DNA of 28,703 nt from a virus. The notes below the pieces were generated by a model. That model saw nothing but the letters and a program-made list of their open reading frames with translations, was not told the DNA's origin and made no database searches. The stretch lies in IMG/VR virus record IMGVR_UViG_3300005529_001117, positions 1 through 28,703 of that record; one strand, written 5' to 3'. Shown in pieces: positions 4,334-28,099 of this stretch (positions are counted from its first letter, which is position 1; each line of letters opens with the position of its first letter). Made by a program: the position numbers and the translations under genes.

Positions 4334-4511
4334 GCGAGCGTTGGCGCATGCAGTCGCGGCAGCGGCAGCGCGGCGTGTCCGGGTTGTGCTGCTTCCAGTA
4401 TTTCCCGCCCGAGTACGAAGCGCGCTTGCGCGCGTTCCGGCGCGCCCGCTCCGCTTTCAGGACTTCGTCGGGAATGGTTGCGGGATCGATGTCTTTCGTC
4501 CAGCGTTTCAT
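4293..4511 (-). CDS. 72-aa basic CxCxxC protein, last gene of TA island
   Basis: A small protein beginning MKRWTKDIDPATIPDE, followed by a basic helix (KAERARRNARKRAS), the stretch YSGGKYWKQHNP and a cysteine cluster CRCRDC. The cluster could bind a metal or RNA. I recognise the general form as a small hypothetical protein seen next to HicB-like genes, but I know no assigned function. The ATG overlaps the stop of the upstream HicB gene as ATGA (4508-4511), so it belongs to the same translationally coupled unit. The C-terminal 13 codons run antisense over the end of terL. A longer upstream extension in the same frame is arginine-rich and overlaps hicB, so I rejected it. It could be a third TA component, an RNA-binding regulator or a passenger. 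Confidence 0.65.
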   Translation of the reverse strand: MKRWTKDIDPATIPDEVLKAERARRNARKRASYSGGKYWKQHNPDTPRCRCRDCMRQRSLTSSNSRRRPSSA

Positions 4512-4723
4512 GCGACCTCGGCGTATTCCACCTGTGTGGTGGGTTCCGGGATGGGATCGCCGTCTTCGCGCATGCCTTCGAGATGAAACTCGATCGCTTC
4601 GCGGATGTTGCGGCGCACCTCTTCGAGCGTATCGCCCGTGGACACGCAGCCGGGAAGATCGGGAACCGATGCGCAATAATTGCTGCCCGGCGCCTTCTCG
4701 ATTACGACAGCGTATTGCCTCAT
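4508..4723 (-). CDS. hicB: HicB-family antitoxin-like protein (orphan)
   Basis: A 71-aa protein with the HicB partial RNase H-like fold: YAVVIEKAPGSNYCASVPDL, then PGC and a TLEEVRRNIREAIEFHLEGM helix (residues 4-52). HicB proteins bind and neutralise the HicA mRNA interferase and often repress their own promoter through a separate DNA-binding domain. This one is short and has no C-terminal HTH or ribbon-helix-helix after about residue 55. No HicA gene is adjacent; its neighbours are the brnA-like gene upstream (ATGA overlap at 4720-4723) and the 72-aa Cys protein downstream (ATGA overlap at 4508-4511). It could be an orphan antitoxin, could act with the HicA at 11668, or the 72-aa protein may be an unfamiliar partner. 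Confidence 0.82.
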   Translation of the reverse strand: MRQYAVVIEKAPGSNYCASVPDLPGCVSTGDTLEEVRRNIREAIEFHLEGMREDGDPIPEPTTQVEYAEVA

Positions 4724-4920
4724 TTCATCGCCTCGACGATCGAGATGTCCTGGCTCAGCAGCTCGTTTACCAGCTCGTTCAGCGATGTGCCCTTCCGCTC
4801 CGCGGCGGCGGAAAGGTAGGTTTGCAAATGCTCGTCCAGATATACCGGGATGCGAAGCGTTGCATCGGGCCGGTAAAACTTGCCGCGTTCGGCGTTTTGA
4901 AAATCGTAGTGATCTCTCAT
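4720..4920 (-). CDS. brnA: BrnA-like ribbon-helix-helix antitoxin
   Basis: A 66-aa protein immediately downstream of a BrnT-type toxin. A basic/aromatic N-terminal arm (RDHYDFQNAERGKFYRP) is followed by a ribbon-helix-helix-like unit: strand ATLRIPVYL and helices EHLQTYLSAAAERKG and SLNELVNELLSQD (residues 20-60). Known BrnA antitoxins bind BrnT and, as RHH dimers, repress the brnTA promoter. This one is shorter than typical BrnA and could instead be called a CopG-like antitoxin. Its start overlaps the brnT stop by 4 bp (4917-4920). The likely operator is the inverted repeat at 5237-5254. Confidence 0.78.
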   Translation of the reverse strand: MRDHYDFQNAERGKFYRPDATLRIPVYLDEHLQTYLSAAAERKGTSLNELVNELLSQDISIVEAMK

Positions 4921-5222
4921 TGGTGTTCCTCGTATTCGTGGATCTCGGCGCGATTGGCCGGGCGAGCGGAAATGATGCGTACCCGAGCGCTGGAAGGGCT
5001 CAGATCTTGCCAGGTGTGAATCACGAGGAGCATCTGGCCATTGCTGGCGTGCCCGATGCTGATCCAGCGCTCTTCGGTTTCGGAATGGTCCGGATCGGGA
5101 ATCGTCCGAGCGAGCGGATCCAAAAAGATCGTCGCGCCCGTTTCGAACGAGATTCCATGCTTGCGCAGATTTTCAACGGCCTTTTTCGGATCCCATTCGA
5201 ACTGATGTTCAAAGCCGCTCAC
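4917..5222 (-). CDS. brnT: BrnT-family ribonuclease toxin
   Basis: A 101-aa BrnT-type toxin, a RelE-fold ribonuclease family that inhibits translation and is neutralised by BrnA. The family signature is clear: FEWDPKKAVENLRKHGISFE (residues 8-27), LDPLARTIPD, the ERWISIGHASNGQMLLVIHT strands (51-70) and the C-terminal RIISARPANRAEIHEYEE (82-99) containing the conserved Arg/Glu residues. The start is GTG at 5222, exactly where transcription would begin from the promoter at 5229-5257, so the mRNA is probably leaderless; there is no Shine-Dalgarno sequence. It is the first gene of a four-gene leftward island in which every junction is an ATGA overlap. It lies between terL and the portal gene, antisense to late transcription, as a moron would. 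Confidence 0.88.
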   Translation of the reverse strand: MSGFEHQFEWDPKKAVENLRKHGISFETGATIFLDPLARTIPDPDHSETEERWISIGHASNGQMLLVIHTWQDLSPSSARVRIISARPANRAEIHEYEEHQ

Positions 5223-23576: not shown

Positions 23577-23653
23577 CACCGCACGAAGGATATGACAGAT
23601 TTATGAACTACCGGGATAGTGCGCACAGCGTGCGAAAGCTCGCAGTTCTCGGT

Positions 23654-23679
23654 CGTTTGTGCGCAGGTGCGCACAAACG
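23654..23679. promoter_or_regulatory. Perfect 11-bp inverted repeat
   Basis: Arms CGTTTGTGCGC (23654-23664) and GCGCACAAACG (23669-23679) around a 4-bp AGGT centre. No T-run follows on either strand, so an operator or recombination/replication site is more likely than a terminator. Related GTGCGCAC occurs about 35 bp to the left. Confidence 0.7.
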
Positions 23680-23746
23680 CACCAGGATGCGCGCCCCGGT
23701 TTTTTACTATTTTCCGTCAAATCTAAGCGTGACACACTCAGATTTC

Positions 23747-23850: not shown

Positions 23851-24303
23851 TCATAGTTTCTCCAGATCCGCCCGCCGGTAGCGGTACGGCCGCATGTGCT
23901 CCAGCCGCTTGAGCTTTCCTCGCGCGACCAGCTCGCCCAGATACGCGGCCGGCAGGCCGGTATAGCGCACGGCTTCGGCGGTGGTCAGATAGACCTTGGC
24001 CCGCAGCTCTGCAAGCGGCAGCGCGTCGCGCCCGGGCGGGGGGATCGCGGCCAGGGCTTCGAAGAGCCGCGCGGGCACGAGCTGGCCGCCGGGGGCCGGC
24101 AGGGCGGCCTGTCCGTCAGGGACGGACAGGCCCTTTTCTCTCGCTAAGCGCAACACCTGATCGGGATTATAGACCGGCACATTGGGGCCGCGCTCGTGCT
24201 TCGCCAGGCGCCCGCGGGCGTGCAGGCGGTCGACCGTGCGCTCGCTGACGCGCAAGGCCTGCGCCACCTGCGCTTTCGTGAGCCATTCGGAGATGGGCTT
24301 CAT
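23851..24303 (-). CDS. Protein with two HTH (excisionase/MerR-like) domains
   Basis: A 150-aa DNA-binding protein with two helix-turn-helix units of the excisionase/MerR-like HTH_17 kind. The first is LTKAQVAQALRVSERTVDRL followed by HARGRLAKHE (about 8-37). The second is YLTTAEAVRYTGLPAAYLGE, then LVARGKLKRLEHMRPYRYRR (about 104-145). A proline/alanine linker separates them. The R-G-R/K-L pattern at the end of each recognition helix and the basic wing are typical. It is a candidate excisionase or regulator. The ATG at 24303 is preferred to an arginine/proline-rich upstream extension. It is the last gene of the leftward chain. An inverted repeat at 24106-24132 lies inside it. Confidence 0.8.
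   Translation of the reverse strand: MKPISEWLTKAQVAQALRVSERTVDRLHARGRLAKHERGPNVPVYNPDQVLRLAREKGLSVPDGQAALPAPGGQLVPARLFEALAAIPPPGRDALPLAELRAKVYLTTAEAVRYTGLPAAYLGELVARGKLKRLEHMRPYRYRRADLEKL
24106..24132. repeat. 12-bp perfect inverted repeat inside the HTH gene
   Basis: Arms GGCCTGTCCGTC (24106-24117) and GACGGACAGGCC (24121-24132) around AGG. On the plus strand CTTTTCTC follows, so it could terminate rightward (antisense) transcription. It includes TGTCCGTCAGG, 10/11 identical to the tandem repeats at 23747-23768, so an operator is the other possibility. Confidence 0.65.
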
Positions 24304-24310
24304 CGGGGCC

Positions 24311-24574
24311 TCACTGGACCGGGGAAGGGCCGGCGCGTTCCTTCCTGGCGTAATCGCTTTCGGGATATTCCTCCATCGCTGCGGCGTGCAGGGCTTGGGC
24401 GAGCTCGGCGGCCGAGCCGACGTTATGCCATCCCGGCGTCGACATGTCGCTATATCGCTCGTCCATGTAGGAGCACAGGGCGAAATCGAAGCCGCCATCC
24501 CAGAGCATGGTGATGGTTACGTTGATTTCGGAATCGTAGAGGGCCTGTAAGGTGCTGTCAAGATTTCTGGCCAT
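24311..24574 (-). CDS. Conserved hypothetical protein (87 aa)
   Basis: An 87-aa protein opening ARNLDSTLQALYDSEINVTI and TMLWDGGFDFALCSYMDE, with a later stretch GWHNVGSAAELAQALHAAAM and EEYPESDYARKER. I recognise this as a conserved small hypothetical protein found in many bacterial and prophage genomes; it has no assigned function. The NVTITMLWDGGFDFAL portion suggests a small beta-sheet. The start at 24574 removes a serine-rich extension that would overlap the neighbouring gene. It sits 7 bp upstream of the double-HTH gene and 19 bp downstream of the coiled-coil gene, so it is clearly part of the same leftward transcript. Confidence 0.78.
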   Translation of the reverse strand: MARNLDSTLQALYDSEINVTITMLWDGGFDFALCSYMDERYSDMSTPGWHNVGSAAELAQALHAAAMEEYPESDYARKERAGPSPVQ

Positions 24575-25996: not shown

Positions 25997-26239
25997 ATGA
26001 ACGAGACGCCGAATACCCCGAAACGCTGCTGGTTCTGCCATGGCGGCGGCCGTATCCGCATGTCCGCCGAACTGTCCGTGCCGTGCACGATCTGCGACGG
26101 CCGCGGCACGTTGAAAACGCACCGCCCGCAATGCATGCAGGCGTGGATCGACACCACGCCCCGCAAGCCCGCGCGCAACGCCCAAGTCGCCGAGCCGCTG
26201 CGCTCGGTTCTCAACCAGTTTTCGAAGGGGGTGGCGTAA
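25997..26239 (+). CDS. DnaJ-type zinc-finger small protein (80 aa)
   Basis: An 80-aa protein with two CxxCxGxG-like knuckles, CWFCHGGGRI (about 11-20) and CTICDGRGTL (about 30-39), which together form the four-cysteine zinc site of a DnaJ central domain. There is no J domain, so it is a stand-alone zinc-binding module rather than a chaperone partner. The C-terminal half is basic with one more cysteine. A purine-rich AGAGAGAAACGAA precedes the ATG. It is the first gene of the rightward early unit, and its stop overlaps the next ATG by one base (TAATG). A regulatory or nucleic-acid-binding role is plausible. Confidence 0.78.
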   Translation: MNETPNTPKRCWFCHGGGRIRMSAELSVPCTICDGRGTLKTHRPQCMQAWIDTTPRKPARNAQVAEPLRSVLNQFSKGVA

Positions 26240-26871
26240 TGGAAAAGATCAAGTTCGAGATCAACAAGCCCGTCGAGATGCGCCTGGCGTATCTCGAAGG
26301 CAAGCCCGTCAAATCGGACTACGGATTCGACGGCATGCAATACATGTACAGCACGACTGACGGCCGCGTGTTTTTCGTCGCCACGAAAGCGGGTCAGATT
26401 ATCGAACAGCAACTCATGAAGCTCAACATCGAGAAGGGCGAGCCCGTCGAGATCGGGCGATTCGAGTTCGACATGGGGCGCGGCCGGAAGCAGATTCAGT
26501 GGATCGTGAAGCGGGTCAACCCGATCGGCGAGCAGCGCGATGGGACGTTCGCGGTCGAGAATGGCGCCGGGACGGGTGCGCGAACACCCGCCCCGGTGGT
26601 TGAGCCATCTGTTACTGCCACTTCCAACGGCAATGGTAACAAACCGCCCGTCAACGGGCACGCGGCCGCGGCCGGCGCGCCCGAGCACAACATGCACCAG
26701 GGATGGGGGCAGTTTTTGCTGTCGCAGACCAATGCGATCATCGATGTATACGCCGCCGCGCTTCGTTATAGCGCGCGCCACGAAGGCCTTGTCAAGGCCG
26801 AAGATGTGCGCTCGGTCCTGCTGAGCGCGTTCATCCACATTTCCCGGAACGGAGGCGCGCATGTCGCCTGA
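26239..26871 (+). CDS. Unknown early protein, possible OB-fold/ssDNA-binding type (210 aa)
   Basis: A 210-aa protein in three parts. Residues 1-95 are strand-rich and charged (EKIKFEINKPVEMRLAYLEG, DGRVFFVATKAGQIIEQQLM, RGRKQIQWIVKRV), which could be an OB-like fold. Residues 100-150 are a low-complexity linker rich in Ala, Pro, Asn and Gly. Residues 155-210 are helical (GQFLLSQTNAIIDVYAAALR, KAEDVRSVLLSAFIHIS). Location between a zinc-finger gene and a RecB-like nuclease suggests DNA replication or recombination, and a single-strand-binding role is only an inference from shape and position. The end overlaps the nuclease gene by 11 bp. No family is recognised with certainty. Confidence 0.75.
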   Translation: MEKIKFEINKPVEMRLAYLEGKPVKSDYGFDGMQYMYSTTDGRVFFVATKAGQIIEQQLMKLNIEKGEPVEIGRFEFDMGRGRKQIQWIVKRVNPIGEQRDGTFAVENGAGTGARTPAPVVEPSVTATSNGNGNKPPVNGHAAAAGAPEHNMHQGWGQFLLSQTNAIIDVYAAALRYSARHEGLVKAEDVRSVLLSAFIHISRNGGAHVA

Positions 26872-27658
26872 AACCCTCACTCGCGGAGCGGCCCTGGCCG
26901 CTCCCGCGCCGCTCGGCGAAACGCTCTCGCCGTCGAAGGCGAAACTGTGGCTGGAATGCTCAGCGCGCTGGTGGTTCAAATACGCGATGGGGCTGCCCGA
27001 CCCGCCACGTGCAGATATGGTGCGCGGGATCGTGATCCATCGCGTGGTCGAGGCCTACATGAAGGCGAAGCGGGCCGGACAGACCCTGGAGGCCGACGAC
27101 CTGGCCGAAATCTTTTCTAGCGCCTGGGAAGCGGCCTGCGAGGGCGCCGTATTCGACGGCGCCGACGATCTGGGCCAGCTCCAGCAGGAAGCGGCCATCC
27201 TGGCCCGCAAGTACCTGGACGAAGCCGCGCCCGAGATCGAGCCGGCCAAGATCGAGATGCCGGTCGCGGGCGCGATCGGCGGGGTACACGTCCGCGGGGT
27301 GGTGGACCTCATGGATGTGCACGGGCGCATCATCGATCTGAAATCGAGCGGGCGCAAGCCATCGAAGATCAACCCCGGGTATGCGTTTCAGGTCGCGACG
27401 TACGTGCAGCTCGCGCCCAGCGCATCGGGCGAAGTGCGGCTCGATACGCTCGTCAACACGAAAACCCCGCAGCTCGTCACGCTGCCCTATCGCGTGAGCG
27501 AAGCTGACATCCGTATGACGCAGACCTTGTACCCGCACATTCAGGAAGGCATGCGCGAAGGGCGCGTGTTTCCGAACCGCAACTCGACGACGTGCTCGCG
27601 CAAGTACTGCCCGTATTGGCAAGAGTGCGAAGCGGAGTTCGGGGGCCACGTAGAATAA
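26861..27658 (+). CDS. PD-(D/E)XK nuclease, RecB/Cas4-like with cysteine cluster
   Basis: A 265-aa nuclease of the RecB/AddB/Cas4 superfamily. Core motifs are H60 (GIVIHRVVEAY), D149 (RGVVDLMD), D159 and K161 (IIDLKSS) and the QxxxY motif Q177/Y181 (AFQVATYVQ). C33 near the N terminus (LECSARWW) and C245, C250 and C256 at the C terminus (TTCSRKYCPYWQEC) are arranged as in the Fe-S-stabilised Cas4/AddB type. Members act as exonucleases on single- or double-stranded DNA in phage recombination or replication. No cas genes or CRISPR array are present, so a Cas4 adaptation role is not supported. The ATG at 26861 lies inside the preceding gene. Confidence 0.88.
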   Translation: MSPETLTRGAALAAPAPLGETLSPSKAKLWLECSARWWFKYAMGLPDPPRADMVRGIVIHRVVEAYMKAKRAGQTLEADDLAEIFSSAWEAACEGAVFDGADDLGQLQQEAAILARKYLDEAAPEIEPAKIEMPVAGAIGGVHVRGVVDLMDVHGRIIDLKSSGRKPSKINPGYAFQVATYVQLAPSASGEVRLDTLVNTKTPQLVTLPYRVSEADIRMTQTLYPHIQEGMREGRVFPNRNSTTCSRKYCPYWQECEAEFGGHVE

Positions 27659-27762
27659 GTTTTCTGCCGCGTGGAACGCGGGACGTCCTAGGCGTCCAAA
27701 CGCGGGCCGGTCCGGGTGGCTCCGAACCGGCTAATCTACGTTTGGCAGAAAGGAGGCAGCGG
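27659..27762 (+). ncRNA. Structured leader RNA before a micropeptide gene
   Basis: The 104-nt gap can form several compatible helices. P1 is TTTCTGCC/GGCAGAAA (27661-27668/27744-27751). P2 is GCGT/ACGC (27669-27672/27676-27679), and P3 is GGACG/CGTCC with a 7-nt loop (27681-27685/27693-27697). P4 is AAACG/CGTTT (27698-27702/27739-27743), enclosing P5 GCCGGT/ACCGGC (27706-27711/27726-27731). The ribosome binding site AGGAGG (27751-27756) directly abuts the 3' strand of P1. This resembles a multi-branched cis-regulatory RNA; it matches no riboswitch I know and was found by eye, not by energy calculation. Confidence 0.5.
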
Positions 27763-27840
27763 ATGTTCTACATCACGCTGACTGTCACGATCGCAATGGC
27801 CGTTGCGATCACGGTCACCGTCCGTTATAAGCGGCGGTAA
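27763..27840 (+). CDS. 25-aa membrane micropeptide
   Basis: A 25-codon gene, MFYITLTVTIAMAVAITVTV followed by RYKRR: one hydrophobic Thr/Val/Ala/Ile segment with a basic C-terminal end, so a single membrane helix with the C terminus predicted in the cytoplasm. The evidence for translation is the near-perfect ribosome binding site AGGAGG with a 6-nt spacing, one of the best in the window. Small hydrophobic peptides of this type include type I toxins, leader peptides and membrane-protein modulators; I cannot say which. It is last in the rightward early unit and lies between a structured leader and a GNRA-capped hairpin with a terminator. Confidence 0.6.
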   Translation: MFYITLTVTIAMAVAITVTVRYKRR

Positions 27841-27921: not shown

Positions 27922-27947
27922 AAGGCCCGGCTTTGAGACCGGGCCTT
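27922..27947. terminator. Strong intrinsic terminator, possibly bidirectional
   Basis: A perfect 9-bp stem AAGGCCCGG/CCGGGCCTT (27922-27930/27939-27947) with an 8-nt loop. It is preceded by an A-run and followed by GTCCTTTCT, so it can end transcripts from either side. It closes the rightward early unit. Confidence 0.82.
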
Positions 27948-28053
27948 GTCCTTTCTCCCCAACTGATCACTCGAACTGCACTTTTTTTTTTAATCTAACA
28001 AATCCGTGGCAAAATGTTCGGAAAGAGCAGAGTCTCTTCTGAGCTGGACAGAG
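27948..28053. other. Short non-coding gap with a T10 run
   Basis: About 100 bp without a recognised gene; it includes a 10-T run at 27982-27991. A 34-codon frame (ATG 28014 to stop 28121) runs through the following hairpin, but nothing else supports it. Confidence 0.45.
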
Positions 28054-28099
28054 CGCCCGCGCCGACGGGTTGCGACCTCGTGGCGCGGGCGTTTGTTTT
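28054..28099 (+). terminator. Terminator-like hairpin abutting a start codon
   Basis: A perfect 10-bp stem CGCCCGCGCC/GGCGCGGGCG (28054-28063/28082-28091) has an 18-nt loop that can itself fold, followed by TTTGTTTT (28092-28099). The T-run ends at the base before ATG 28100. It would stop transcription just before the next gene unless read through, so it may be an attenuator. Confidence 0.65.

Follow-up and report, generated by a model that had tools for sequence, protein, structure and literature searches.

A 25-codon open reading frame (ORF) downstream of a phage nuclease gene is probably a real gene of the nuclease operon and would encode a small membrane protein. Our preferred explanation of the arrangement, held tentatively and at somewhat less than an even chance, is that this micropeptide gene has a strong Shine-Dalgarno sequence of its own and is separated from the nuclease gene by a stop-proximal RNA structure that limits re-initiation. 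Neither the micropeptide nor its leader is of a new kind; of more interest, as a by-product of the analysis, is that small membrane ORFs recur behind this nuclease in other genomes.

The window, that is, the whole stretch of DNA analyzed (28,703 nucleotides), is a 28.7-kb virus record. It encodes P22-type portal and coat proteins, a large terminase, a tyrosine integrase, a serine recombinase, and a lysozyme, a gene content that indicates a P22-like, probably temperate podovirus. The hosts are probably soil bacteria. Of 257 genomes from a single order, 22 carry the nuclease; the class to which that order belongs includes a Candidatus Sulfotelmatobacter MAG, and this distribution suggests that the host group is probably Acidobacteriota. 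The operon that carries the nuclease would be an early, recombination-type operon with the micropeptide ORF as its last cistron. Its features are as follows:

25997–26239, + strand: gene for an 80-aa zinc-domain protein at the operon start, weakly similar to the zinc domains of anti-TRAP and DnaJ
From 26236, + strand: gene for a 211-aa protein, second in the operon
26861–27658, + strand: PD-(D/E)XK (RecB/Cas4-like) phage nuclease gene, the upstream cistron (Pfam PDDEXK_1, 1.4e-24; PHROG exonuclease)
27659–27762, + strand: 104-nt spacer, or leader, between the nuclease gene and the 25-codon ORF
27751–27756, + strand: Shine-Dalgarno sequence AGGAGG, 6 nt before the ATG
27763–27840, + strand: ORF for a putative 25-aa single-pass membrane peptide, MFYITLTVTIAMAVAITVTVRYKRR, with a basic C-terminus (RYKRR), recognized by its hydrophobicity, strong Shine-Dalgarno sequence, and recurrence in relatives
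27922–27947, readable on both strands: intrinsic terminator that closes the operon

A second terminator-like hairpin (about 28053–28091) lies about 130 nt from this terminator; the gap between them is AT-rich, and the next gene follows.

A first-pass annotation of this DNA had proposed a membrane micropeptide gene behind a near-perfect, ideally spaced AGGAGG. Both proposals are well supported: the motif is in fact perfect and its spacer is 6 nt, the encoded peptide is extremely hydrophobic, and small membrane peptides are encoded at the same place in relatives. The + strand of the window has three instances of AGGAGG followed 4–9 nt later by an ATG and the − strand has none, against 0.66 occurrences per strand expected from shuffles; each of the other two + strand instances stands before an ORF consistent with the order of the late genes. 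The micropeptide is more hydrophobic than all 1336 random ORFs of 20–40 aa, and its best 17-residue hydropathy is 2.23. Structure within the RNA of the ORF (z −1.2) does not exceed a synonymous-codon null, so the ORF is not a mere by-product of structured RNA, and we rejected that explanation. Two points call for caution: the reading frame is open upstream as far as a GTG at 27592 (82 aa), and a few of the ORF's codons are rare in this phage. We think it improbable that the ORF is untranslated and that its Shine-Dalgarno sequence and hydrophobicity coincide by chance. Such an accident would fit an ORF of only 25 codons whose product has no sequence homologue in any library searched, but it sits poorly with the joint rarity of the two properties and with the membrane ORFs that recur at this place in relatives. 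We infer that the peptide is translated in vivo and inserted into the membrane. As to function, our guess would be an early phage peptide that acts on the host membrane, for example in superinfection exclusion.

Relatives were reached through the portal protein, which gave the nearest phages, and then through nuclease alignment. Two of these phages, G051 and G052, carry the nuclease at 37–40% identity and have a GC-rich, terminator-like hairpin directly 3′ of its stop codon; neither the leader nor the micropeptide was found in them. Further nuclease loci from IMG/VR show up to 53% identity. Across 33 loci the slot after the nuclease is variable. Some loci have terminators there, others small soluble genes or an HNH-like gene, and seven (L196, L215, L216, L218, L222, L241, and G106) have a small membrane ORF that begins around the nuclease stop. 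This last group was defined as ORFs of 20–90 aa that start between −5 and +12 around the stop. Its frequency (7/33) compares with 8/528 for control genes drawn from the fetched loci (Fisher p 6e-6), a value that is indicative only because the hydrophobicity threshold was set after the loci had been seen and because the controls include some spurious ORFs. In several relatives the start codon of the membrane ORF overlaps the nuclease stop, usually as AUGA or GUGA; the encoded peptides include MRLRDWIGTAALVLLMLIMLAIAVGLWVVEPTSPVWPPWLD (G106) and MTSHMIGAALLMAGAAWLIPAGIYAFRELLRMARTKR (L218). The L216 and L218 peptides look related, with a shared IPAG..AF.EL.RM motif that possibly marks a micropeptide family, whereas the remaining ones are not. 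The window ORF starts at +107, outside the −5 to +12 group, and its peptide has no recognizable homology to any of the relatives' small membrane peptides; what they have in common is the next-gene place and the membrane character. In five bacterial genomic loci (L220, L221, L223, L224, and L239), the nuclease gene is followed instead by an ATGA-overlapping gene (MKPQRNPRYLAWIRTQPCCVCG...) whose product is HNH-type nuclease-like.

The 104-nt leader between the nuclease gene and the ORF, as delimited in the first-pass annotation, is confirmed and strongly folded. Its folding energy is −52.5 kcal/mol (z −3.42), and none of 200 dinucleotide shuffles was equally low; across analyses z ranged from −3.4 to −3.9. 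When both strands were scanned in 1102 windows of 104 nt, about 1.2% attained a z of −3.4. By a post hoc estimate, 0.08% of shuffled leaders have a perfect 8-bp stem that closes both ends. Folding favors a three-way junction formed by a 16-bp P1/P1a stem with a 2-nt bulge, a P2b/P3 hairpin, and a P5 hairpin. These helices, placed by base-pair probability, and the neighboring hairpins are as follows:

27660–27752, + strand: three-way-junction RNA element (fold, pair probabilities, z, and the stop-proximal criteria given below)
27660–27668/27744–27752, + strand: P1
27669–27675/27735–27741, + strand: P1a
27677–27680/27701–27704, + strand: P2b
27681–27687/27691–27697, + strand: P3
27705–27711/27726–27732, with an apical part 27713–27716/27721–27724, + strand: P5
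27646–27674, + strand: H0, a competing hairpin of the nuclease gene end and the 5′ arm of P1, with the stop codon in its loop
27758–27779, + strand: start-codon hairpin, about −9 kcal/mol, independent of P1

Of the five helices originally drawn for this leader, P1, P3, and P5 are recovered with probabilities of about 0.76–1.0, whereas P2 (CGCG/CGCG) and P4 (AAACG/CGUUU) have probabilities of 0.00–0.01, and P1a and P2b form instead. The junction starts 1–2 nt 3′ of the nuclease stop, with the stop codon and the Shine-Dalgarno sequence at opposite ends of P1. The ribosome binding site does begin where P1 ends, as had been observed: P1 ends with the first two bases of AGGAGG. H0 has an energy of −9.5 kcal/mol alone and is seen in folds of nascent transcripts; in full context its probability is 0.03.

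A further claim had been that the leader looks like a switch that hides or exposes the ribosome binding site, and this the results do not support. Of the six Shine-Dalgarno bases, P1 pairs the first two at most. The start-codon hairpin is closed in all truncations tried, with P1 present or absent; thus, P1 is not what hides the start codon. When the 5′ arm of P1 is removed in silico, the start codon is still paired, and the change in Shine-Dalgarno accessibility is small and inconsistent. Searches for the leader elsewhere give the claim no help either. In agreement with the earlier impression that it fits no known riboswitch family, it had no match at gathering score among 4227 Rfam families on either strand. 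No leader homologue was found in about 60 related virus records or nuclease loci, and none that was convincing in 399 bacterial genomes, in collections that may lack the records closest to the window. A covariance model built from the single leader sequence (self-match 137.7 bits) matched nothing in the related records; its weak matches in 4 of the 399 genomes (E 0.008–0.09 per genome) are attributable to chance, given their number and their alignments. Nine IMG/VR matches to the exact P1–Shine-Dalgarno motif were all unrelated, and none had the 5′ arm of P1. Searches of phage and plasmid records for the leader or the peptide returned nothing meaningful, the plasmid matches being to the terminator only. 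We also rejected a tRNA or tmRNA, which a cloverleaf-like impression had suggested and of which none was detected, and pairing of the Shine-Dalgarno sequence with a pyrimidine stretch at 27949–27963, which lies past the terminator.

Intergenic structure has been assigned two opposite roles. Structure around a downstream start may be opened by the upstream ribosome (PMC12548453), or structure directly after a stop may prevent re-initiation (PMC7518266). Structures of the latter kind, termed ribosome termination structures (RTS), are defined by at least five consecutive 40-nt windows, with start positions from −10 to +20, that are stabler than randomized sequence, at least one window at −6 kcal/mol or below, and a gap of at least 25 nt; they are enriched where neighboring genes are at least 25 nt apart and depleted where genes overlap (PMC7518266). 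When the spacer alone was permuted and the last nuclease codons were kept, 31 of 31 stop-proximal windows were stabler than the permutations. The minimum energy was −20.8 kcal/mol, and the next gene is 104 nt away. We prefer an insulating role since the leader begins 1–2 nt after the stop, most of the Shine-Dalgarno sequence lies outside P1, that sequence is strong and the ORF's own, and the leader falls within all three computational limits for an RTS. In several relatives the membrane peptide appears tied to the nuclease, whereas here 104 nt separate them. The leader would act in this phage as an RTS, from which ribosomes finishing the nuclease would leave rather than re-initiate, and the micropeptide would be initiated on its own, with the balance between AGGAGG and the start-codon hairpin setting the rate. 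We infer this insulating role from a structure that resembles published RTS in its stability right after the stop, its gap of more than 25 nt, and its windows below permutation; the leader differs in being larger and multi-helix and in closing exactly at the next Shine-Dalgarno sequence, and the published criteria are genome-wide ones. That exact closure of P1 is left unexplained by an insulating role.

Several other roles for the leader deserve weighing, and our estimates for them are not mutually exclusive, since translation of the ORF and the role of the RNA are partly separate questions. The main rival to insulation, which we consider rather unlikely, is coupling by unfolding. P1 and the start-codon hairpin would keep the micropeptide off until the 5′ arm of P1 is melted by a ribosome reaching the end of the nuclease gene; this would release the stretch preceding the Shine-Dalgarno sequence, and output would follow nuclease translation, as in the MS2 coat–lysis pair; the RNA-unfolding model of coupling has been reviewed (PMC12548453). 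Coupling would make sense of the stop codon and Shine-Dalgarno sequence at the two ends of P1, of the competition between H0 and P1, and of the overlapping, apparently coupled membrane ORFs in relatives. However, in silico loss of the P1 arm neither frees the start codon nor much alters Shine-Dalgarno access, the 104-nt gap is long, and post-stop structure lowered coupling in the one systematic screen; the strong Shine-Dalgarno sequence also suggests independent initiation. Another reading, in which the leader is a two-state RNA (H0 versus P1) that senses nuclease translation and sets the output of a membrane-active micropeptide, is very improbable in our judgment. If true, it would add a new kind of switch, internal to the operon, to phage recombination operons.

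The spacer may instead be an ordinary GC-rich 3′-UTR of the nuclease gene, serving mRNA stability or left over from a terminator hairpin and irrelevant to the micropeptide, which we regard as unlikely. The RTS criteria are permissive and easily satisfied in GC-rich DNA, and post-stop structure at other genes of this phage is comparable or stronger (the nuclease gene ranks 2–4 of 25), so an unrelated 3′-UTR structure is conceivable. L218, a relative with the overlapping arrangement, is likewise strongly folded after the nuclease stop. The terminator hairpins after the nuclease in G051 and G052 and the failure to find a leader homologue anywhere searched agree with this origin. On the other side are the leader's z, which places it among the top 1.2% of windows, and the rarity of its perfect 8-bp closing stem in shuffles; the leader also has no T-run and so is not itself a terminator. 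A further role, to which we give little credence, is that of a dedicated cis-regulatory RNA, whether riboswitch-like, protein-binding, or type-I-toxin-like, controlling a putative toxic peptide. A strong fold directly before a strong Shine-Dalgarno sequence and a hydrophobic, basic-tailed peptide would suit it, but the Shine-Dalgarno sequence is not covered by P1, two of the five helices first proposed are not predicted, and neither an Rfam match nor a homologue was found. A search for an antisense RNA promoter found no sigma-70-like promoter on either strand, a weak test since the sigma-70 type may not be the host's. There is no positive evidence for the regulatory-switch and toxin readings.

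It is useful to set the arrangement beside known systems. In phage lambda, the early exo-bet-gam operon ends, past its exonuclease gene, with genes for the very small proteins Kil and CIII, and translation of cIII depends on mRNA structure through alternative folds and RNase III. The window shares with lambda a very small ORF after an exonuclease in an early operon; there is no sequence relation and no sign here of alternative-fold or RNase III action. The combination of a brief hydrophobic ORF and a structured 5′ region also recalls, as a resemblance only, the mRNAs of type I toxins, timP among them (PMC7667032), and the small hydrophobic ORF expected of type I toxin–antitoxin systems is present (25 aa). 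The present case differs in that no antisense RNA and no family match were found and the ORF is the last cistron of a phage operon. The coat–lysis pairs of the RNA phages MS2, fr, and GA likewise place a small hydrophobic membrane peptide beside an upstream phage gene with a structured start region (PMC12548453, PMC9955659), and the relatives found here share their overlapping stop/start. By contrast, the window comes from a double-stranded DNA phage and has a positive spacing of 104 nt, a strong Shine-Dalgarno sequence of the ORF's own, and an unrelated peptide.

More broadly, unannotated tiny membrane-peptide ORFs recur beside one nuclease family in phages and in Acidobacteriota genomes, and gene callers are likely to miss ORFs this small. 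Similar gene pairs occur in an overlapping, apparently coupled arrangement and in a separated, structured, apparently insulated one, a natural contrast that offers a native setting in which to study the role of stop-proximal RNA structure.

Elsewhere in the window, we considered a replication origin and rejected it, there being no notable skew change. On both strands, the strongest folding of the whole stretch (z about −5.5) is at 23609–23712, 3′ of the gene for the serine recombinase. Nearby, 23854–24498 (− strand) holds a gene for a 215-aa protein with helix-turn-helix domains and an excisionase-like C-terminus. Between the terminase and portal genes, 4508–5222 (− strand) carries genes for a HicB-like antitoxin and a BrnT toxin with a small ribbon-helix-helix-like gene between them; these toxin–antitoxin genes are cargo within the head gene block.
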